Below the pieces are notes generated by a model. It had not been told where the DNA came from and did no database searches. It saw only the letters and a program-made list of their open reading frames with translations. This document shows positions 25,794 through 35,731 of a DNA stretch of 64,000 nt, in pieces. This DNA comes from Aridibaculum aurantiacum (GTDB lineage Bacteria > Bacteroidota > Bacteroidia > Chitinophagales > Chitinophagaceae). How positions within the stretch are numbered: the stretch's first letter is position 1; each line of letters begins with the position of its first letter. The position numbers were made by a program, and so were the translations under genes. The stretch spans positions 5,001-69,000 of the forward strand of contig NZ_JAFEWC010000003.1 in NCBI RefSeq assembly GCF_017355875.1. Direction: 5' to 3'.

Positions 25794-28052
25794 ATGAAGA
25801 TCATTCTACTCATACTCTTTTGCACGTTTTCCTTTTTTTGTGAAGCACAAAAACTAAAAGGTAGAGTAGTGTGTGAAGGAGCGCCCGTAGCCGGTATCTC
25901 CGTTTTAGTGGAAGGACAAAAAAAAGGAGCTATCACAAATGCACAAGGAGAATTTGATATAGAAGGTGTTGCCCCGCAGACCATCACACTTCATTATTCT
26001 GGTATTGGATACCAGCATAAAAAGCTTGTTTTTCAAGCGGATTCTTTGCATACAGTTTTACCCGAAGTGGAACTTGAAAGGATGATGGGCAACATGCAGG
26101 AAGTAGTGGTAACCGGAACTTTGAAAGCGGTTAGCAAAATGGACAGCCCGATCCCGGTAGAAGTGTACACGCCAGTATTATTCAAGAAAAATCCTTCACC
26201 AAATATTTTTGAAAGCCTGCAGATGGTGAACGGTGTGCAACCGCAGCTTAATTGCAATGTGTGCAACACTGGCGACATTCACATCAATGGTATGGAAGGT
26301 CCGTATACGATGATACTCATAGATGGGATGCCGATCGTCAGCAGCCTTTCTACCGTTTATGGTTTATCGGGTATACCCAATAGTATGGTGAAAAGAGTAG
26401 AGATAGTAAAAGGTCCCGCATCTACCTTGTATGGCAGCGAAGCAGTAGGTGGTTTGATCAATATTATCACTAAAGATCCATTGACAGCTGATAAACTAAA
26501 AGTGGATCTGTCTGCTACCAGTGTAGGTGAATACAATGCTGATGTGAATGCCAAATTCAATGTTCAAAAGTCATCATCTATCATTGGTGTCAACTACTTC
26601 AACTACTGGCAAAGACGTGATATCAACAATGATAATTTTACCGATGTAACACTGCAGAACCGGGTGTCGCTGTTTAATAAATGGAATTTCCACCGAAAGG
26701 AAAACCGGTTGTTTACATTGGCGGGCAGGTATATATACGAAAACCGTTGGGGAGGAGAGCTGCAGTGGAACAGGTCGTTTCGCGGATCGGACAGCATATA
26801 TGGCGAGAGCATTTATACCAACAGGTACGAGCTGATAGGCAACTACCAGTTTAGTAAAAACCTGTATGCTGATGTATCGTACAACTACCACCTGCAGGAT
26901 AGCTACTACGGCACTACACCTTATAAAGCACTGCAACATGTGGCTTTTGCACAACTGAGATATCTAAAATCCATCAATAAACACAATATCCTCGTCGGGC
27001 TGCCATTGCGTTATACATGGTACGATGATAATTCTATCGCTACTCAAAAACGTGGTGGTGTTAATATGCCTGCCATTACTTATTTACCTGGTTTGTTTGT
27101 ACAAGATGATTGGAAGGTGAATGAAAAGCTGACGCTGCTGGCTGGCCTGCGGTACGATCATAACAATAACCACGGCAGCATTTTTACGCCACGACTTGCT
27201 TTCAAATATGCTCCTAATCGCCACAATAGCTTGCGTATGAGTGCGGGCAATGGTTACCGCGTCGTCAATCTTTTTACTGAAGATCACGCTGCCCTTACAG
27301 GAGCCCGCGATGTGGTGATCACTTCTGAACTAAAGCCGGAGCAAAGCTGGAACACCAACATAAACTACACCAGCCATATCAATCTCAACAATGGTTTCAT
27401 AGCTGTGGACGCAAGTGCTTTTTATACCTATTTCACTAACAAGATTGTGGGCGATTTTTTTACTGACCGTAACAAGATCATTTACGATAACCTGTATGGT
27501 TATGCCATTTCTAAAGGATTGACGCTAAACATTGACGCAGGTTTCAAGCAGGGCCTGAAAGTGAATGCAGGTGTAACCTATATGGATGTTTACCAGGTGG
27601 AGGAGGGGCAAAATGGTTTACCAGAGAAAGTGCCGCAGCTTTTTGCGCCAAAGTTTTCCGGTACTTATGCTGTCAGTTATACTTTTCCTAAGGCGGGTAT
27701 AGCCATCGATTGGACAGGAAGGGTGAATGGTCCCATGTATCTTCCGGTTTTTCCAAATGACTTTCGGCCTGCTCAGTCTCCGCTGTACTGCATAATGAAC
27801 CTCCAGTTGACGAAAAATTTCAAGCAATTTGAATGGTATGGCGGAGTGAAGAACCTGCTGGACTTTGTGCCGTCAAATCCCATCCTGCATTCTGACGACC
27901 CTTTCAACAAACCAGGAGGTAAATATTTTGATGCAAATGGAGATTCTCGTCCAGATACCAATCCCAACGGCTATACTTTTGACCCCACCTATAATTATGC
28001 ACCCATACAAGGCGCTAAAGTTTTTGTGGGCGTCAGGTGGATCTTGAAGTAA
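25794..28052 (+). CDS. TonB-dependent receptor with N-terminal CarboxypepD_reg-like domain
   Basis: 752 residues. A signal peptide (to about 18, ending CEAQ) precedes a carboxypeptidase-regulatory-like domain (about 20-95: LKGRVVCEGAPVAGISVLVEG, ITNAQGEFDIEGV). The plug (about 105-225) contains the Cys-containing NCNVCNTGDIHINGMEG and ILIDGMPIVSSLSTVYG, then VEIVKGPASTLYGSEAVGGLINIITK; the barrel ends VFVGVRWILK. The closely spaced Cys pair in the plug is seen in a subset of Bacteroidota receptors. The ligand is not evident and no SusD partner is adjacent, so it is not a SusCD glycan system. Metal chelate, haem or cofactor uptake is possible. Confidence 0.88.
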   Translation: MKIILLILFCTFSFFCEAQKLKGRVVCEGAPVAGISVLVEGQKKGAITNAQGEFDIEGVAPQTITLHYSGIGYQHKKLVFQADSLHTVLPEVELERMMGNMQEVVVTGTLKAVSKMDSPIPVEVYTPVLFKKNPSPNIFESLQMVNGVQPQLNCNVCNTGDIHINGMEGPYTMILIDGMPIVSSLSTVYGLSGIPNSMVKRVEIVKGPASTLYGSEAVGGLINIITKDPLTADKLKVDLSATSVGEYNADVNAKFNVQKSSSIIGVNYFNYWQRRDINNDNFTDVTLQNRVSLFNKWNFHRKENRLFTLAGRYIYENRWGGELQWNRSFRGSDSIYGESIYTNRYELIGNYQFSKNLYADVSYNYHLQDSYYGTTPYKALQHVAFAQLRYLKSINKHNILVGLPLRYTWYDDNSIATQKRGGVNMPAITYLPGLFVQDDWKVNEKLTLLAGLRYDHNNNHGSIFTPRLAFKYAPNRHNSLRMSAGNGYRVVNLFTEDHAALTGARDVVITSELKPEQSWNTNINYTSHINLNNGFIAVDASAFYTYFTNKIVGDFFTDRNKIIYDNLYGYAISKGLTLNIDAGFKQGLKVNAGVTYMDVYQVEEGQNGLPEKVPQLFAPKFSGTYAVSYTFPKAGIAIDWTGRVNGPMYLPVFPNDFRPAQSPLYCIMNLQLTKNFKQFEWYGGVKNLLDFVPSNPILHSDDPFNKPGGKYFDANGDSRPDTNPNGYTFDPTYNYAPIQGAKVFVGVRWILK

Positions 28053-28165
28053 AAGTTGCTAGTTGTAGCAAAGGGCGAAATTGCCGGCTGTCATCTCAAT
28101 CACTCAAACGGTAACAGCAGTTTACTTTCACAGATTCCTGCTTCCAACTGCTTTCTGTCTTTCCT

Positions 28166-28173
28166 TACCTTTG
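28166..28173 (+). promoter_or_regulatory. ileS -7 box (TACCTTTG)
   Basis: Matches TAnnTTTG 36 bases before the ileS ATG. No clear -33 element. Confidence 0.42.
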
Positions 28174-28209
28174 CGCACATTTTTAGCATAACCAGGAGTT
28201 TCTTTTATT

Positions 28210-31200
28210 ATGAATAAATACAGAGAGTTTTCGGGCCTCAACCTGCCGGCAATAGAAAAGGAAATATTGGCCAAATGGGAGGAGAGCCAGGCTTTTGAAA
28301 AAAGTGTAGACCTGCGTGAGGGGGCCACTCCCTTTGTTTTTTACGAAGGGCCACCCAGCGCCAACGGTATGCCCGGCATTCACCACGTTATTTCCCGTAC
28401 ACTAAAAGACCTGGTGTGCAGGTACAAAACCATGCGCGGCTTCCAGGTAAAAAGGAAAGGCGGCTGGGATACACATGGCTTGCCGGTAGAACTAGGCGTG
28501 GAAAAGATGCTGGGGATCACCAAAGAAGATATTGGCAAAACCATTTCTGTAGCTGATTATAATGAAACCTGCCGCAAAGAGGTACTGAAGTACAAGGACA
28601 AGTGGGATGAGCTGACCCAAAAAATGGGTTACTGGGTTGACCTGAAAGACCCTTACATCACTTTTGATAATAAATATATAGAGACACTTTGGTGGCTGCT
28701 AAAGCGCCTGTACGATAAGGGATTGTTGTACCAGAGCGTGAGCATCCAACCGTACAGCCCGGGTGCAGGTACGGGTCTTAGCTCCCACGAACTCAACCAG
28801 CCTGGTACATATAAAGATGTAAAGGACACATCTACAGTGGCGATGTTTAAGCTGCTGAAGAACGACAAGTCGAACTTCCTGGTAGAAAAAGCAAATAATG
28901 AGGATATTTATTTCCTCGCCTGGACCACTACACCTTGGACCTTACCTTCCAATCTTGGTCTTACCGTAGGACCAGCTATTGATTATGTGCTGGTGAAAAC
29001 CTTTAACCCATACACACATTTGCCTATAAATGTGATAATGGCAAAGGCGCTGTTGCACAAGTTCTTCAAGCCTGAAGGAGAGAATGGAGATTTTGAAAAT
29101 TATGCAGAAGGGGTGAAGCTACTGCCATGGCAGGTGTTGGCAGAAGTAAAAGGTGCAGATCTTGAATTTGTAGAATACGAGCAACTGTTACCATATGAAG
29201 CTAACAGTCCTGCGAACATTAATAGCCTTACTGGTGAAGCACCGCAGCCATTCCGCGTTATCCTGGGTGATTTTGTAACAACTGAAGACGGTACAGGTAT
29301 CGTGCATACAGCACCTGCATTTGGCGCCGATGACTATCGCGTTGGTAAAAAATACAACATTGGTATTCTTACCATGGTAGACCGCGAAGGGAAATTTGTG
29401 GATGGACTAGGTGAATTCAGCAACAGGTTTGTAAAGAATTATAAAGACGAAAAAGATTTCGCTGATGTGAATGTAGACATCAGCGTGAAGCTAAAGAAAG
29501 AGAATAGAGCATTTAAAGTAGAGAAATACGAACACAGCTATCCTCACTGCTGGAGAACTGATAAGCCGGTGCTTTACTACCCGCTGGATGCATGGTTCAT
29601 AAAAACCACTGCGCTAAAAGACCGGATGGTGGAGCTAAACAAAACCATCAATTGGAAGCCAAAATCAACCGGTGAAGGCCGTTTTGGAAACTGGCTGGAG
29701 AACATGGTGGACTGGAACCTGAGCCGTAGCCGCTACTGGGGTACACCACTACCGGTATGGCGCACAGAAGATGGAGCAGAAGAAGTATGTATTGGTTCTA
29801 TAGAAGAATTAAATGCCGGCATCCGCAAAGCAAGTGAAGTATTGGGTGGTGATGTAAACAAGAACTACCTGCACGAAGGCATCTTGGATCTGCACAAACC
29901 GTATGTGGATGAAATCATACTCGTAAGCGAAAGCGGCAGAGAAATGAGGCGTGTTCCCGACCTGGTGGATGTATGGTTTGACAGTGGTGCCATGCCTTAT
30001 GCGCAGTGGCATTACCCATTTGAAAATAAGGACCTTGTAGATGAAGGAAAAGCTTTTCCTGCTGATTTTATAGCCGAAGGTGTAGACCAGACACGCGGTT
30101 GGTTCTATACACTTCACGCTTTAGGGTCTTTGCTATTTGATAGCGTAGCTTATAAAACGGTTGTTTCCAATGGGCTTGTTCTTGACAAGAACGGGAACAA
30201 GATGAGTAAGCGACTGGGAAATGTGGTTGATCCATTCCAGACAATTGAAAAGTTTGGAGCTGATGCTACCCGCTGGTACCTCATTACCAATGCCAGCCCG
30301 TGGGATAACCTGAAGTTTGACATAGCAGGAATACAGGAAGTGCAGCGCAAGTTCTTCGGCACCTTATACAATACCTACCAGTTCTTCGTATTGTACAGCA
30401 ATCTTGATGGTTTTGCTTTCAAAGAAGAATACATACCACTTGACCAGCGCCCTGAGATCGACAGGTGGATACTGTCGTCGCTCAATACGTTGGTAAAAAC
30501 GGTTACTGAAGAAATGGATGATTACGAGCCTACACAGGCTGGTCGTGCCATTGAAGATTTTGTAGACGAGCACCTGAGCAACTGGTATGTGCGCCTTTGC
30601 CGCCGCCGTTTCTGGAAAGGTGAATACGAGCAAGATAAGATTGCGGCTTACCAAACGCTGTACGAGTGCCTGGAGACAGTGGTAAGGTTGATTGCACCAA
30701 TCTCTCCATTCTTTGCCGACGCAGTTTTCCAAAACCTGAACGGCGTTACCGGCAGGTTTAAGGCTGAAAGCGTACATCATGTTGATTTCCCTGTAGCCAA
30801 TGAAAATGCAATTGACAGAGATTTAGAGGAGCGCATGCAACTAGCACAGGACGCTTCCTCTCTTATATTAAGCATTCGGAAAAAGGTGAACATTAAAGTG
30901 CGTCAGCCTTTGCAAAAAGTGCTGATCCCGGTTCTAAACCCGGTGATGAAGGTGCAGCTGCAAAAGGTGGAAGACCTGGTAAAGTCGGAAGTGAATGTAA
31001 AGGAGATACAGTACCTGGAGGAAACAGCAGGTTTTATAAACAAGAAGATAAAGCCAAATTTTGTTGCTCTTGGTAAGAAGCTGGGACCGAAGATGAAAGC
31101 AGTGTCTACAGCCCTTGCGAAGTTTAATCAACAGGATATCACCACAATGGAGAAAGATGGTCAATATATTTTGGACATAGATGGTGAACCCCTTACCTTG

Positions 31201-31563
31201 CAAGCAAACGAAGTAGAGATAACAGCAGAAGACATACCGGGTTGGAGTGTAGCAAGTAAAAGTAGCCTTACAGTAGCCCTGGATATCACCATCACCGATG
31301 AGCTAAAGCGAGAAGGAGAAGCACGGGAATTCGTTAACCGTATCCAAAATCTAAGGAAAGACAGTGGCTTCGATCTTACTGACAGGATCGTTATTGAGAT
31401 CGAGCAGAACGACCAGATCGCAGATTCCGTAAATACGTACAACAAATATATTTGCGCGGAAATTTTGGCAGATAACATCCACTTTGTTAACGAGCTTGCC
31501 AATGGCATCGAAATTGAAGTAAATGATATCCGGCTAAAAGTGAGTGTAACTAAAAACACATAA
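28210..31563 (+). CDS. ileS: Isoleucyl-tRNA synthetase with GIHH signature
   Basis: 1117 residues; charges tRNA-Ile with isoleucine. Class I Rossmann features are EGPPSANGMPGIHH near 45-59 and KMSKR near 664. The CP1 editing domain lies around 200-400 (WTTTPWTLPSNLGL, GTGIVHTAPAFGADDY), and an anticodon-binding region and C-terminal extension follow. The normal HIGH motif (HxGH) is rearranged to G56-I57-H58-H59. The length, about 180 residues more than E. coli IleRS, and the overall pattern fit the eukaryote-like IleRS type 2. The GXHH variant of this type is reported to be hyper-resistant to mupirocin. A dksA-like gene starts 4 bp after the stop codon, so the two are probably co-transcribed. 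Confidence 0.96.
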   Translation: MNKYREFSGLNLPAIEKEILAKWEESQAFEKSVDLREGATPFVFYEGPPSANGMPGIHHVISRTLKDLVCRYKTMRGFQVKRKGGWDTHGLPVELGVEKMLGITKEDIGKTISVADYNETCRKEVLKYKDKWDELTQKMGYWVDLKDPYITFDNKYIETLWWLLKRLYDKGLLYQSVSIQPYSPGAGTGLSSHELNQPGTYKDVKDTSTVAMFKLLKNDKSNFLVEKANNEDIYFLAWTTTPWTLPSNLGLTVGPAIDYVLVKTFNPYTHLPINVIMAKALLHKFFKPEGENGDFENYAEGVKLLPWQVLAEVKGADLEFVEYEQLLPYEANSPANINSLTGEAPQPFRVILGDFVTTEDGTGIVHTAPAFGADDYRVGKKYNIGILTMVDREGKFVDGLGEFSNRFVKNYKDEKDFADVNVDISVKLKKENRAFKVEKYEHSYPHCWRTDKPVLYYPLDAWFIKTTALKDRMVELNKTINWKPKSTGEGRFGNWLENMVDWNLSRSRYWGTPLPVWRTEDGAEEVCIGSIEELNAGIRKASEVLGGDVNKNYLHEGILDLHKPYVDEIILVSESGREMRRVPDLVDVWFDSGAMPYAQWHYPFENKDLVDEGKAFPADFIAEGVDQTRGWFYTLHALGSLLFDSVAYKTVVSNGLVLDKNGNKMSKRLGNVVDPFQTIEKFGADATRWYLITNASPWDNLKFDIAGIQEVQRKFFGTLYNTYQFFVLYSNLDGFAFKEEYIPLDQRPEIDRWILSSLNTLVKTVTEEMDDYEPTQAGRAIEDFVDEHLSNWYVRLCRRRFWKGEYEQDKIAAYQTLYECLETVVRLIAPISPFFADAVFQNLNGVTGRFKAESVHHVDFPVANENAIDRDLEERMQLAQDASSLILSIRKKVNIKVRQPLQKVLIPVLNPVMKVQLQKVEDLVKSEVNVKEIQYLEETAGFINKKIKPNFVALGKKLGPKMKAVSTALAKFNQQDITTMEKDGQYILDIDGEPLTLQANEVEITAEDIPGWSVASKSSLTVALDITITDELKREGEAREFVNRIQNLRKDSGFDLTDRIVIEIEQNDQIADSVNTYNKYICAEILADNIHFVNELANGIEIEVNDIRLKVSVTKNT

Positions 31564-31567
31564 GCTA

Positions 31568-32539
31568 ATGGCTACTAAAAAACCCTTAACAGCAGCAAAA
31601 TCAGCTGCTAGTGCTTCAAAAACAGCTAAACCAGCACAGGCTAAACCAAGTGCAAAAACGTCTAAATCTGCCCCGGAAAAGATCACTCCAAAAAAGGCAA
31701 CTGACAAATTAGCAAAAGCAGCCAAGCCTGGCGCAGGAACAACAGCGAAGCAAAATGGGAATAAAGTAGCCGAATCAAGTAAACCCGCAGCTAAGGTTGT
31801 AGCACCTAAAAAGGCTGTTGCAAGTGCTGCATCAAAAACAAATTTGCCTGTGAAAAAAGCATCAGACAATACCAAAGAAAGTAAGGCCACCACAACAGTT
31901 AAGAAAGCAGCGGTAGTTCCTGAAGCTAAAGCAGCTAAGGCAGCTCCTGCAAAACCTGTTGAAGATAAAAAGACCGCTAAGGCAGCGGCTCCTGCAAAAA
32001 CTGAAGAAAAAGCACCTGCAGCAAAAGCTCCGGCCGCAAAGAAGGCAGAGCCAAAAGCAGCCAAGCCGGTAGTTATACCAAAAACATCTACCGATAAAAA
32101 AGTTGACTACGAGCCAGACTTCATGAAAAGCGTACTGGATACACCTGCACCAACTCCGCAAGGTCCTACCATGCGATATAGCGATGCAGAACTACAGGAA
32201 TTCAGGGAGCTGATCAACAAAAAGCTGGATGCAGCTAAAAAAGAATTAGCGTACTTGCAAGGTCTCATCACCCGCCGCGACGAATTGGGTGGCGACGAAA
32301 CTGATAACCGCTACATGACGATGGAAGATGGTGGCATGAGTATGGAGCGTGAGCAGCTTAGCCAGATGGCAAGTCGCCAGATCACCTTCATCGATCACCT
32401 GGAAAAAGCCATCATGCGTATTGAAAATAAGACCTACGGTATTTGCCGGGTTACTGGCAAATTGATAGATAAAGCACGTCTTCGCGCTGTACCTCATGCT
32501 ACTTTAAGCATGGAAGCCAAGTTGGGAATAGTAAAGTAA
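31568..32539 (+). CDS. DksA/TraR-like protein with a histone-H1-like Lys/Ala tail
   Basis: 323 residues. Residues 1 to about 185 are Lys/Ala/Pro-rich low complexity like bacterial histone-H1 or AlgP tails. Residues 201-323 resemble the DksA/TraR family: a coiled coil (AELQEFRELINKKLDAAKKELAYLQG) and the C-terminal YGICRVTGKLIDKARLRAVPHAT. Only one of four zinc-ligand Cys positions remains, so the zinc finger is lost, as in Bacteroidota relatives as far as I know them. It could bind RNA polymerase's secondary channel through the coiled coil and nucleic acid through the tail; that is inference. It is 4 bp after ileS and closed by a strong terminator. Confidence 0.88.
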   Translation: MATKKPLTAAKSAASASKTAKPAQAKPSAKTSKSAPEKITPKKATDKLAKAAKPGAGTTAKQNGNKVAESSKPAAKVVAPKKAVASAASKTNLPVKKASDNTKESKATTTVKKAAVVPEAKAAKAAPAKPVEDKKTAKAAAPAKTEEKAPAAKAPAAKKAEPKAAKPVVIPKTSTDKKVDYEPDFMKSVLDTPAPTPQGPTMRYSDAELQEFRELINKKLDAAKKELAYLQGLITRRDELGGDETDNRYMTMEDGGMSMEREQLSQMASRQITFIDHLEKAIMRIENKTYGICRVTGKLIDKARLRAVPHATLSMEAKLGIVK

Positions 32540-32561
32540 ACTATACACATATTCTTACGTA

Positions 32562-32590
32562 AGGGAGCTACATAGTAGCTCCCTTTTTTT
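32562..32590 (+). terminator. ileS-dksA-like operon terminator
   Basis: A perfect 10-bp stem, AGGGAGCTAC/GTAGCTCCCT, with a 3-base loop and seven T, 22 bases after the stop codon. Confidence 0.9.
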
Positions 32591-32752
32591 GTGTACGAGA
32601 AATTGTAGCACGTTCAAAATCAAAACAATCTCATCTTTTCAACAGCCTTGAAAAATCTTTAAAAACATCATGTAGAGTTAAGAAAACATAAAAACCATAA
32701 AGAACCAGTCTTCGTATTTGGCAGTAACAAATTGTAAATTAAACTGAAGAAT

Positions 32753-35731
32753 ATGAAGACAAAGTCTACTCTCTACCATCTGCCAAAGTTCTTATTCGCA
32801 CCTGCCTTCTGGTTGTGCATGTTTTTGATACCAAACGGGATGAGCCAGGTAAATGCTCAGAAAGTTTATGCGGTCACCTCAGGTTTAAACCTGGTAAGTT
32901 TTGAGGCTGCATCGCCCGGCACCATCACTTCTTCGGTCCCTCTTACAGGACTCCTTGCCAATCACACTTTTGAAGGCCTTGACTTTAGACCAGCAAACGG
33001 GCAGCTATATGCATTTAGCTACCACTCCACCACCGGCGCAGCGCAGGTATATCGAATTAAACCAGGCAGCGGCACCATGACACCGATAGGAAACACCATC
33101 ACTTTAGCTACAGGTATGTCATCTATCGGTTTTGATTTCAATCCAACTGTTGATCGGATACGCCTTACAAGTGCCACCAGGCAGAACTACCGGTTGAACC
33201 CGAATGACGGTTCACTGGCTGCCACAGATGGAACGCTTACCTATGCAGCAGGTGATCCTAATGCAGGTGCTACACCTAACATAAGGGGAGTGGCTTATTC
33301 AAACAATCTTCCTTCTGTCACCACTACTGCAATCTATTACTACGACTTTAACCTGAATACCTTAAGCACCAGCAGTGCACCTAATGCCGGCACTATGAAT
33401 ACAATCGGCTCTTCAGGTATAGTAGCAGCATCTACATCAGCGATTGATATGGATATATATACCAGCACTGGCACCGGTACCAATTCAGCATATCTTTTAG
33501 CTGGTACCAGCGGTAGCAATAGCAACTTCTACAGGTTAAATCTTTCTACAGGGGCAGCAACACTGGTGGGAATGATAGGTAGCGGGTTGGATATTATAGA
33601 TATAGCTGTTATGGTTGATCCCACACCCGTAAATAAGTTGATCTATGGGTTGAGTGGAAACAACCTGGTTACTTTCTTTTCTAATACGCCTAATACATTT
33701 ACCAGTAGCATGATGATCTCTGGCATTACAGCCGGACAAGCCATAGTTGGATTAGATTTCAGACCTGCTACCGGGCAGCTTTTTGCTATGGGCTACAATA
33801 GTAGTAATGGCGCCACCCAGCTTTATGTATTGAATACATCTACAGGCGCTGCAACAGCAGTAGCAGCTCCTGTAACATTAGCTACTGGAATGACGGGTAT
33901 TGGTTTTGATTTTAACCCAACAGTAGACAGGATACGCGTTACGAGTGATCAGCGGCACAACTACCGGCTAAATCCAAACAACGGTGCAATAGGAGCAACC
34001 GATGGTACTCTTACGTATGCACCAGGTGATCCTAATGCTTCGGCAATGCCAGCTGTACATGCAGTTGCATATACCAACAGCTTCAGCGGTGCTACCACCA
34101 CAGCTATCTATTATTATGATATAAACTTGAACATCCTTGCCACCAGTTCAGCTCCTAATGATGGTACAATGAACACTGTAGGAAGTACCGGCATTACAGC
34201 CAATGTTTCGGCAATGATTGACATGGACATTTCATCTAACAGAGCGGCGGCTACCAATAATGCTTTTTTGGTAGCAAGTACCAACGGCACCAGCAGCAAC
34301 CTTTACAGCATCAACCTGGCAACAGGAGCTACCAGGCAAATAGGCCAGGTAGGAATGAGTGGGTTGGTAAGCAATATTGCTGTTTACATTGCGCCACCTC
34401 CTCCTAGCAAACTTGTATATGCACTGTCAGGAAGCAATCTTGTAAGCTTTAATGCAAATATGCCAGGCACGATTGTAAGTTCAGTGGCTGTGACAGGAAT
34501 TGCGGCAGGTCAAACATTGGTGGGTATTGATTTCAGACCAGCAAATGGTCAATTATTTGGAATGGGTTATGCTTCATCGGGAGCTACACAATTGTACCTC
34601 ATCAACCCTGCTACCGGTGCAGCAACCACAGTAGGTTCAGCTATTATGTTAGCTGCTGGTATGACTGATATAGGATTTGATTTCAACCCAACAGTTGACA
34701 GGATCAGGGTGACCAGCAGTAGCCGGAAGAATTATCGTCTCAATCCTAATGATGGCGCTTTAGCTGGAACAGATACTGATCTGAGTTATGATGCAGCAGA
34801 TACCAATCGTTTGGTTGCTCCAGATATTCGTGCAGTAGCTTATACCAATAGTGTAGCAGGAGCTACAAGCACAACTATCTATTACTACGACTATAGCCTG
34901 GATGCGCTTGCTACCAGTGCATCTCCAAATGGTGGAGTACTAACAACCATAGGTAGTACAGCGGTGAACACTACTACTTCTATGGGTTTGGATATGGATG
35001 TGTATACCGACGTAGCCACAATGATGAATACTGCATTTTTATCTGCCACTAATAGTGCAGGAATGAGCAATTTTTATACGTTGAACCTGCAAACTGGTGA
35101 GGCAACGTTGGTGGGAACAATAGGAGGTATGCCTATTTCTGATTTCGCTGTTAGCAGCATGGATGCGCCCCTGCCTGTTACACTGGCTGAATTTAAACTA
35201 GAGAAAGTTGGCCGTAGCAGCAGGCTTAGCTGGATCACGCAAACGGAGATCAACAACGATCATTTTATCATTGAGCGTAGCACGAACGGGGTTGACTTTA
35301 CAGCCATTTCAGGTGTGATCCGTTCAAAAGCGGTGAATGGTAACAGCACCCAGCAGATCTCGTACGAGTACAATGACCTGGCACCAGTAAAAGGAGCAAA
35401 CTTCTACAGGCTTTTACAAGTAGATAAAGATGGAACGAAAAAAACCAGTCGTGTGCTACAAGCAGTGTTTGATGATGTGGTGCCTGTGAAAGTATTCCCT
35501 AATCCAACACGCGGTGAACTGAATGTAACTGCCATTTTTGATGTAGGGACTGTTGTAAGCTCTCGCCTAGTAGATGGATCAGGTAAAGTTATTTTTGTAA
35601 AACAGGAAAAAGTAAGCAGCGGCACTATGAGCAACAGGTTTGATCTTTCCTCTCTGCCTGCGGGAGTTTATTACCTGCTGGTGTTGGATGGCGAAAACGT
35701 AATTCATAGGCAGACTGTTCAGAAGCAATAG
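32753..35731 (+). CDS. Secreted protein with three DUF4394 repeats and a T9SS C-terminal domain
   Basis: 992 residues. A signal peptide ending near MSQVNAQ precedes three homologous repeats of about 258 residues, starting near 37, 295 and 553. Each has GLDFRPANGQLYAF-like, GIGFDFNPTVDRIRVTS-like and NYRLNPNDG-like segments, the hallmarks of DUF4394. Residues about 808-905 look like a FN3-like linker (LSWITQTEINNDHFIIERST) and about 910-992 form a T9SS type A sorting domain (VFPNPTRGELNV ... GVYYLLVLDGENVIHRQTVQ). The protein is therefore probably exported by T9SS and attached to the surface or released. The function of DUF4394, likely a beta-propeller-type fold, is unknown. Confidence 0.92.
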   Translation: MKTKSTLYHLPKFLFAPAFWLCMFLIPNGMSQVNAQKVYAVTSGLNLVSFEAASPGTITSSVPLTGLLANHTFEGLDFRPANGQLYAFSYHSTTGAAQVYRIKPGSGTMTPIGNTITLATGMSSIGFDFNPTVDRIRLTSATRQNYRLNPNDGSLAATDGTLTYAAGDPNAGATPNIRGVAYSNNLPSVTTTAIYYYDFNLNTLSTSSAPNAGTMNTIGSSGIVAASTSAIDMDIYTSTGTGTNSAYLLAGTSGSNSNFYRLNLSTGAATLVGMIGSGLDIIDIAVMVDPTPVNKLIYGLSGNNLVTFFSNTPNTFTSSMMISGITAGQAIVGLDFRPATGQLFAMGYNSSNGATQLYVLNTSTGAATAVAAPVTLATGMTGIGFDFNPTVDRIRVTSDQRHNYRLNPNNGAIGATDGTLTYAPGDPNASAMPAVHAVAYTNSFSGATTTAIYYYDINLNILATSSAPNDGTMNTVGSTGITANVSAMIDMDISSNRAAATNNAFLVASTNGTSSNLYSINLATGATRQIGQVGMSGLVSNIAVYIAPPPPSKLVYALSGSNLVSFNANMPGTIVSSVAVTGIAAGQTLVGIDFRPANGQLFGMGYASSGATQLYLINPATGAATTVGSAIMLAAGMTDIGFDFNPTVDRIRVTSSSRKNYRLNPNDGALAGTDTDLSYDAADTNRLVAPDIRAVAYTNSVAGATSTTIYYYDYSLDALATSASPNGGVLTTIGSTAVNTTTSMGLDMDVYTDVATMMNTAFLSATNSAGMSNFYTLNLQTGEATLVGTIGGMPISDFAVSSMDAPLPVTLAEFKLEKVGRSSRLSWITQTEINNDHFIIERSTNGVDFTAISGVIRSKAVNGNSTQQISYEYNDLAPVKGANFYRLLQVDKDGTKKTSRVLQAVFDDVVPVKVFPNPTRGELNVTAIFDVGTVVSSRLVDGSGKVIFVKQEKVSSGTMSNRFDLSSLPAGVYYLLVLDGENVIHRQTVQKQ

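Follow-up and report, generated by a model that had tools for sequence, protein, structure and literature searches.

A DksA-type protein with a one-cysteine finger and a lysine-rich N-terminal extension encoded behind ileS in Aridibaculum aurantiacum

The window analyzed here, a stretch of 64,000 nucleotides from the genome of Aridibaculum aurantiacum (4.86 Mb in 5 contigs, estimated completeness 100%), carries immediately behind ileS an open reading frame that joins a long lysine- and alanine-rich extension to a domain resembling the transcription factor DksA, with most of the zinc-binding cysteines missing. Is this a working regulator of RNA polymerase, and what do the altered finger, the extension, and the company of ileS mean for it? 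Our reading, to which we assign a probability of roughly 60%, is that the protein acts as a zinc-independent regulator in the secondary channel of RNA polymerase and carries a lysine tail that would tether it to nucleic acid. The features are as follows.

28210..31563, + strand: ileS, isoleucine--tRNA ligase, first gene of the pair (TIGR00392, 1038.6 bits versus a cut-off of 621.4)
31568..32539, + strand: DksA/TraR-type protein, whole open reading frame, 323 aa, ATG start (PF01258, 31.1 bits versus a cut-off of 24.9)
31568..32062, + strand: residues 1-165, variable Lys/Ala-rich tail, presumably disordered (composition; 21-41% identity to seven of nine congeners)
32063..32173, + strand: residues 166-202, conserved linker (68-89% identity to seven of nine congeners)
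32108-32140, + strand: linker motif Y181-D191, YEPDFMKSVLD (66 of the 67 family rows carry one or the other of two motif forms)
32183..32434, + strand: coiled coil, helices 206-240 and 255-289 (AlphaFold2 model; best Foldseek matches 1tjl, 4ijj, and 7khi)
32288-32329, + strand: acidic tip loop, residues 241-254 (AlphaFold2 model)
32435..32521, + strand: one-Cys finger, residues 290-318, with C293, T296, S314, and A317 (alignment; model confidence low here)
32561..32585, + strand: terminator-like hairpin and T run, likely transcript end (11 pairs, 6 G-C, loop of 3)

Comparison with relatives marks the open reading frame as a real, conserved, and under-described DksA variant. A first-pass annotation made from the sequence had allowed that the tail might be confined to one strain as an assembly artifact; we reject this, as 58 of 59 relatives match the protein (the genome of the remaining one is 57% complete) and all 67 family rows of the tree described below are tailed. 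All 198 sampled genomes of the phylum match our domain alignment A1 (29 rows picked from the 60 that represent the window and 59 loci of its relatives); for the phylum loci, 20 + 20 chosen loci were fetched and 26 genomes were searched anew. A mis-called start is likewise rejected: the next in-frame Met codon is residue 186, a loose M-A/P/S...K start pattern fits 66 of the 67 family proteins, and the start lies 1 to 7 nt after ileS in 65 of the 67 family rows. Phage origin was also considered and rejected: a search of 50,697 phage records gave a single match, with 30.8% identity and E = 4e-8.

The C-terminal end belongs to the DksA/TraR superfamily, matching PF01258 above its gathering cut-off, and is the sole match to that family in the genome at E ≤ 0.001; it falls short of both NCBIfam DksA equivalogs, TIGR02420 (41.1 versus 115.5) and NF033459 (37.4 versus 105). 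The AlphaFold2 model (pTM 0.50) shows a coiled-coil hairpin with an acidic loop between its two helices, followed by a finger modeled at low confidence (pLDDT only 52-69) in which strands 290-292 and 299-301 precede further helices. The top four Foldseek matches are E. coli DksA (1tjl), Pseudomonas aeruginosa DksA2 (4ijj, two chains), and DksA bound to RNA polymerase at a promoter together with ppGpp (7khi), with a best E of 2.6e-3, none at or below 0.001, and TM scores of 0.36-0.40 by query length. VIA-align placed unrelated generic helical hairpins first and returned no DksA among its 50 rows, and we left it out of the fold claim. The DksA-type coiled coil and finger proposed in the first-pass annotation are thus borne out by profile, model, and structural search. 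A PDB sequence search gave DksA-type proteins as its best four matches (6ptg, 4ijj, 2kq9, and 1tjl); the first of these, a "DnaK Suppressor" presumably from Chlamydia trachomatis (2.2e-07), likewise has one Cys in the aligned finger, but its chain is short (132 aa) and leaves no room for such a tail. Identity to seven of nine congeners (the comparison omits L035, whose tail frame is broken, and L038, whose full-length row is normal) is 21-41% in the tail (residues 1-165), 68-89% in the linker (166-202), and 92-97% in the domain (203-323), and in linker and domain the changes are concentrated at third codon positions. For the domain, this combination of high identity and mostly third-position changes points to strong purifying selection.

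In the finger, the four zinc positions align with C293, T296, S314, and A317, so that the four-Cys site is absent and the single remaining Cys is as first described. Across the window and 59 loci of its relatives (60 rows), the finger reads C-T-S-A in 56, the exceptions being C-S-S-A in L075 and L081 and C-T-S-G in L083 and L087. In the wider sample of 180 phylum loci, taking the best row of each, 161 are C-T-S-A, 10 have another one-Cys form (CTSG, CSSA, CTTA, or CSTA), and 9 differ (eight with at least two Cys, one with C-S-R-F); 80 of these loci were found via patterns drawn from the one-Cys finger, which biases the one-Cys share upwards, and three (L091, L092, and L129) duplicate genomes G005, G006, and G035. 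Most relatives examined evidently share the loss of the zinc site with the window's protein, and the one-Cys form in 171 of the 180 loci argues against local decay. The C-T-S-A finger in 161 of them points to a zinc loss that is both old and tolerated, as in the zinc-free Pseudomonas DksA2.

Deep lineages of the phylum have four-Cys forms, in several cases also directly behind ileS, and the four-Cys protein in this position therefore looks ancestral, the zinc site having apparently been lost early in the window's lineage. When mapped on a 66-row IleS tree, the one-Cys state requires three changes, each imposed by well-supported branches, since the four-Cys loci L210, L248, L260, and L261 are nested in a clade with one-Cys rows (compare L191-L201). 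This interleaving would reflect either repeated identical replacement by T, S, and A or regain of a four-Cys gene. Separately, in the deep-lineage loci L234, L235, L239, L240, L241, L242, and L243, an insert in the finger adds a second Cys-x-x-Cys, and all except L243 lack the last Cys of the usual finger; the outcome may be a rearranged zinc knuckle.

Loss of zinc in itself is already known from P. aeruginosa DksA2, which is described as having two Cys, binding no zinc, and being able to replace DksA1 (PMC9213440). Its zinc-free finger shows matching C-x-x-T and x-x-A replacements of the Cys ligands. DksA2 differs in keeping two Cys and in being, by that account, a second copy made under zinc starvation, whereas the window's protein has one Cys and, as the sole PF01258 match, stands beside no four-Cys DksA.

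E. coli DksA itself is alike in its coiled-coil hairpin and finger and is the first Foldseek match, but it has the C4 zinc site and the exact tip motif that the window's protein lacks, and it has neither the long N-terminal extension nor the position behind ileS. That tip motif is named as DxxDxA in PMC9239242; the aligned tip here is D-E-T-D-N-R (243-248), which keeps D243 and D246 and not the Ala. In E. coli, ppGpp site 2 is reported to be contacted by DksA R91, L95, K98, R129, and K139 together with beta-prime N680, and the substitutions K98A and R129A to stop site-2 binding while polymerase binding is retained (PMC7676912). The equivalents here are R270, F274, H277, V308, and K318, so that two of the five (R91 and K139) are kept and F, H, and V replace L95, K98, and R129. 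Across 182 rows, the R91 and K139 equivalents are kept in 179 each and the R129 position is Val in 179, while the L95 position is Phe in 131 or Tyr in 45 and the K98 position is mostly His (97) or Asn (34). On the polymerase side, RpoC of this genome is identical to E. coli beta-prime at E677, N680, D684, F773, and I774 and has Gly for K681; for the residues other than N680, the role in site 2 is our assumption. Among the positions that we take to include ppGpp site 1, those aligned with R362, R417, K615, I619, and Y626 differ, and H364 and D622 are kept. RNA polymerase binding by the domain is thus plausible on comparative grounds, and E. coli-type ppGpp dependence is doubtful given that site 2 is only partly kept (R91 and K139, but not K98 and R129). 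These domain changes are common to tail-less orthologs and are therefore independent of the tail.

The low-complexity sequence lies at the N-terminus, as an extension, and does not form a C-terminal tail. Lys makes up 22% and Ala 25% of residues 1-201 (82% K/A/P/T/S/V), and the best 165-residue stretch is 54% K+A, compared to 24% in the next best of the 37 frames of at least 200 codons in the window, which places the composition beyond chance. At 54% K+A over 165 residues, the stretch has the Lys/Ala-rich composition of histone-H1-like bacterial proteins, and none of the three Pfam matches at E ≤ 1 is an H1-like family. The first-pass description of about 185 residues of H1-like low complexity therefore holds for the Lys/Ala richness, and its extent is better divided into about 165 variable residues and a conserved linker of about 37. 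Tail length, which that annotation had proposed to compare between strains, was compared across relatives: in the 67 family rows, the extension is 130 to 368 residues long. Without its last 37 residues, it contains 16-37% Lys, 0-3% Arg, 1-14% acidic residues, and 1-11% FWYLIMC, with a net charge of +9 to +92 (medians: Lys 26%, Arg 1%, Ala 25%, Pro 16%, acidic 3%, charge +40). Composition is thus kept while the sequence changes, as expected for an electrostatic tether. As a query against its own genome, the tail found itself alone at E ≤ 10, in a search presumably weakened by low-complexity correction; a tail shared with another protein of the genome was set aside on this weak evidence.

Expansion of KAA-type repeats had been offered as the reason for the length of the tail. 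The window's own copy shows little repetition (a single array of a 15-base unit, 2.2 copies, score 45), but the relatives carry clear tandem arrays, scoring at least 50 in 43 of the 67 family rows, compared to 1 to 9 of 67 in five codon-shuffled controls, and at least 100 in 28 rows, compared to none in five codon-shuffled sets. The period is a multiple of 3 in 134 of 135 arrays, and the arrays suggest that the relatives' tails were lengthened by in-frame tandem duplication; two best arrays, being 98 and 100% matched, look recent. L079 (G048), L060 (G029), and L069 (G038) have very long extensions of 508, 367, and 369 residues ahead of the same domain, and that of L060 contains a 33-base unit repeated about 13.5 times.

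On an IleS tree of 138 rows, a tail, defined there as at least 45 residues ahead of the domain, is present in all 67 rows of the clade that contains the window's own family (support, 100). The tail label requires 8 gains or losses, at least 5 of them forced by well-supported branches, and 55 of the 71 rows outside the clade have no tail, which means that the core function does not need it. Long extensions also occur in scattered lineages outside the clade (e.g., L069, L083, L143, L157, and L159), and a short extension (45-62 residues), again rich in Lys, precedes the domain in the deep rows L205, L207, and L208; a tail of this short kind could therefore be an old feature and not a gain. From the 180 loci, 42 were dropped before the tree was built (repeat genomes, no ileS within -60 to 250 nt, or IleS shorter than 700 residues). 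In five of the dropped loci, which resemble the family, a broken or gapped tail frame makes the tail seem short or absent: in L045, L134, and L138, a Lys-rich peptide is spread over several frames, L114 has a masked gap, and L035 is partly Lys-rich and less clear. The broken frames in L035, L045, L134, and L138 would be either low-complexity sequencing error or real frameshifts.

These data bear on the alternative that the tail is a functionless, near-neutral low-complexity expansion, in which in-frame duplication of Lys and Ala codons is tolerated on a free N-terminus. The low identity, the wide range of lengths, the excess of tandem arrays over codon-shuffled controls, and the five broken or gapped frames are what such drift would produce. 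However, every one of the 67 family rows keeps at least 130 residues, Lys is used with almost no Arg and rare acidic residues, and the tailed proteins outside the family are similar in composition; further, the Lys-rich peptide continues across frames or around the masked gap in four of the five broken loci (L035 being less clear), which makes sequencing or assembly error possible there. We consider a purely neutral tail unlikely. Quite unlikely, too, is a tail whose target is ribosomal or messenger RNA, not DNA, and which thereby couples the regulator to translation. Lysine without Arg or many hydrophobic residues fits general polyanion binding, and the lysine-rich disordered region of Bacteroides Rho is reported to condense with RNA, but the sequence of the tail does not discriminate RNA binding from DNA binding.

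Between tail and domain lies a motif that the first-pass annotation did not mention, Y-x-P-x-F-x-K/R-S-V/I-L-D, about 15 residues ahead of the coiled coil. By short-pattern tests on the 67 family rows, 52 have an S/A-V/I/L-L-D/N form, 14 have a Y-x-P-x-Y-x-P/S/L-L/M-E form, and 1 (L053) has neither; tailed proteins outside the family mostly lack the motif, as judged by eye. The AlphaFold2 model covers the linker with modest confidence (pLDDT blocks of 60-74) and gives it two single helix turns.

In the reading that we prefer, of a zinc-independent polymerase regulator with a lysine tether, the protein would be made from the ileS transcript and its finger would fold without zinc. In the Chitinophagaceae and some other lineages, the lysine-rich N-terminal extension, predicted to be disordered, would most likely hold the protein and its bound polymerase near DNA or RNA, raising the local concentration and perhaps gathering them into condensates like those of Bacteroides Rho, and the linker motif would most likely dock on the DksA domain, the polymerase, or another partner. 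That the core is a zinc-independent secondary-channel regulator is likely, judging by family, fold, and conservation. That the tail tethers the protein electrostatically to nucleic acid has, in our view, slightly better than even chances, given that composition is maintained although sequence is not, that tails recur in separate lineages, and that Rho offers a precedent.

That precedent comes from the same phylum: in Bacteroides, a lysine-rich disordered region of Rho is described as driving RNA-dependent condensation and binding ppGpp (PMC13269538; its main text does not mention DksA). Like the window's protein, Bacteroides thetaiotaomicron Rho is a transcription factor combining a lysine-rich disordered region with short conserved motifs; it is unrelated, and its region is described as Lys/Glu-rich plus Asn/Gln-rich, in contrast to the Lys/Ala/Pro composition with few acidic residues found here. 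The Aridibaculum genome has one match each to the RelA/SpoT, GreA/GreB, and Rho families by profile search. The open frame of its Rho (match G000:C1:318943-319164) spans 553 residues, which exceeds the 419 of E. coli Rho, so this protein may also carry an extra region. A bolder version of the tether follows from the analogy with Rho, from the changed site 2 (K98 to H, R129 to V), and from the polymerase differences at the presumed site-1 residues: the tail would be a ppGpp- and RNA-responsive condensation module that takes over alarmone sensing and gathers polymerase into starvation-induced foci, with the linker motif as a switch between tail and domain. We regard this as a long shot.

Three features are new to us: the one-Cys finger, frozen and widespread; the lysine tail found throughout the family; and the conserved motif in the linker. 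Among the matches listed in searches of open-licence papers, we found none on any of these three and no title on Bacteroidota DksA; open-licence searches combining DksA with Chitinophagaceae, DksA with alanine-rich/lysine, or the DksA zinc finger with Bacteroidetes or Chlamydia trachomatis found none. A paper on B. thetaiotaomicron networks (PMC12596196) reportedly mentions DksA once. In much of the phylum, the branch of starvation control that depends on DksA may work with no zinc and with only part of the ppGpp site 2 known from E. coli, and one large family may add a disordered tether to it. If so, the phylum would have, besides Bacteroides Rho, a second core transcription factor whose wiring was changed by a lysine-rich disordered region. 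The short linker motif named here is the first target for mutation.

The position of the gene directly after ileS had suggested a connection from aminoacylation status to transcription. The arrangement itself is as first described, with both genes on the same strand, a gap of 4 nt, and a terminator-like hairpin behind the second. The hairpin is only suggestive as a terminator, given that our scan found 12 terminator-like sites where shuffles predict 6.1 (about twofold), and with it the two genes probably form the end of one shared transcript. The stronger claim, a regulatory circuit through which the capacity for isoleucyl-tRNA charging would set the amount or the activity of DksA, draws on this tight spacing, on the gap of 1 to 7 nt kept throughout nearly all of the family, and on the adjacency of ileS (-60 to 250 nt) in 152 of 182 rows of fetched loci. 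Yet the same neighborhood is present at loci without a tail, and an lspA-like ORF comes next in 61 of the 113 loci outside the 67 family rows (some dropped family loci included) and in 0 of 67 within, by a rough motif test; the lspA of the Aridibaculum genome lies about 44 kb from the dksA-like gene. Such an order looks like an old growth-gene neighborhood and may reflect merely shared growth-linked expression. Rfam returned no family at gathering score across 27500-33500, on which basis an RNA element near the pair was rejected, and no tRNA-related domain was matched in the 323-aa protein by Pfam or NCBIfam profiles. Gene order thus gives a reason for shared expression and lends no support to charged-tRNA sensing, and the circuit seems to us decidedly improbable. 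That the protein has left the secondary channel to serve chiefly as a histone-H1-like nucleoid protein is hardly credible: tail composition and the failed NCBIfam cut-offs would fit, but the domain is the most conserved part, R270 and K318 are nearly invariant across the 182 rows, and no H1-like Pfam family was matched. The next gene downstream (32753-35731, + strand) encodes three DUF4394 stretches and a C-terminal Por_Secre_tail secretion sorting domain.
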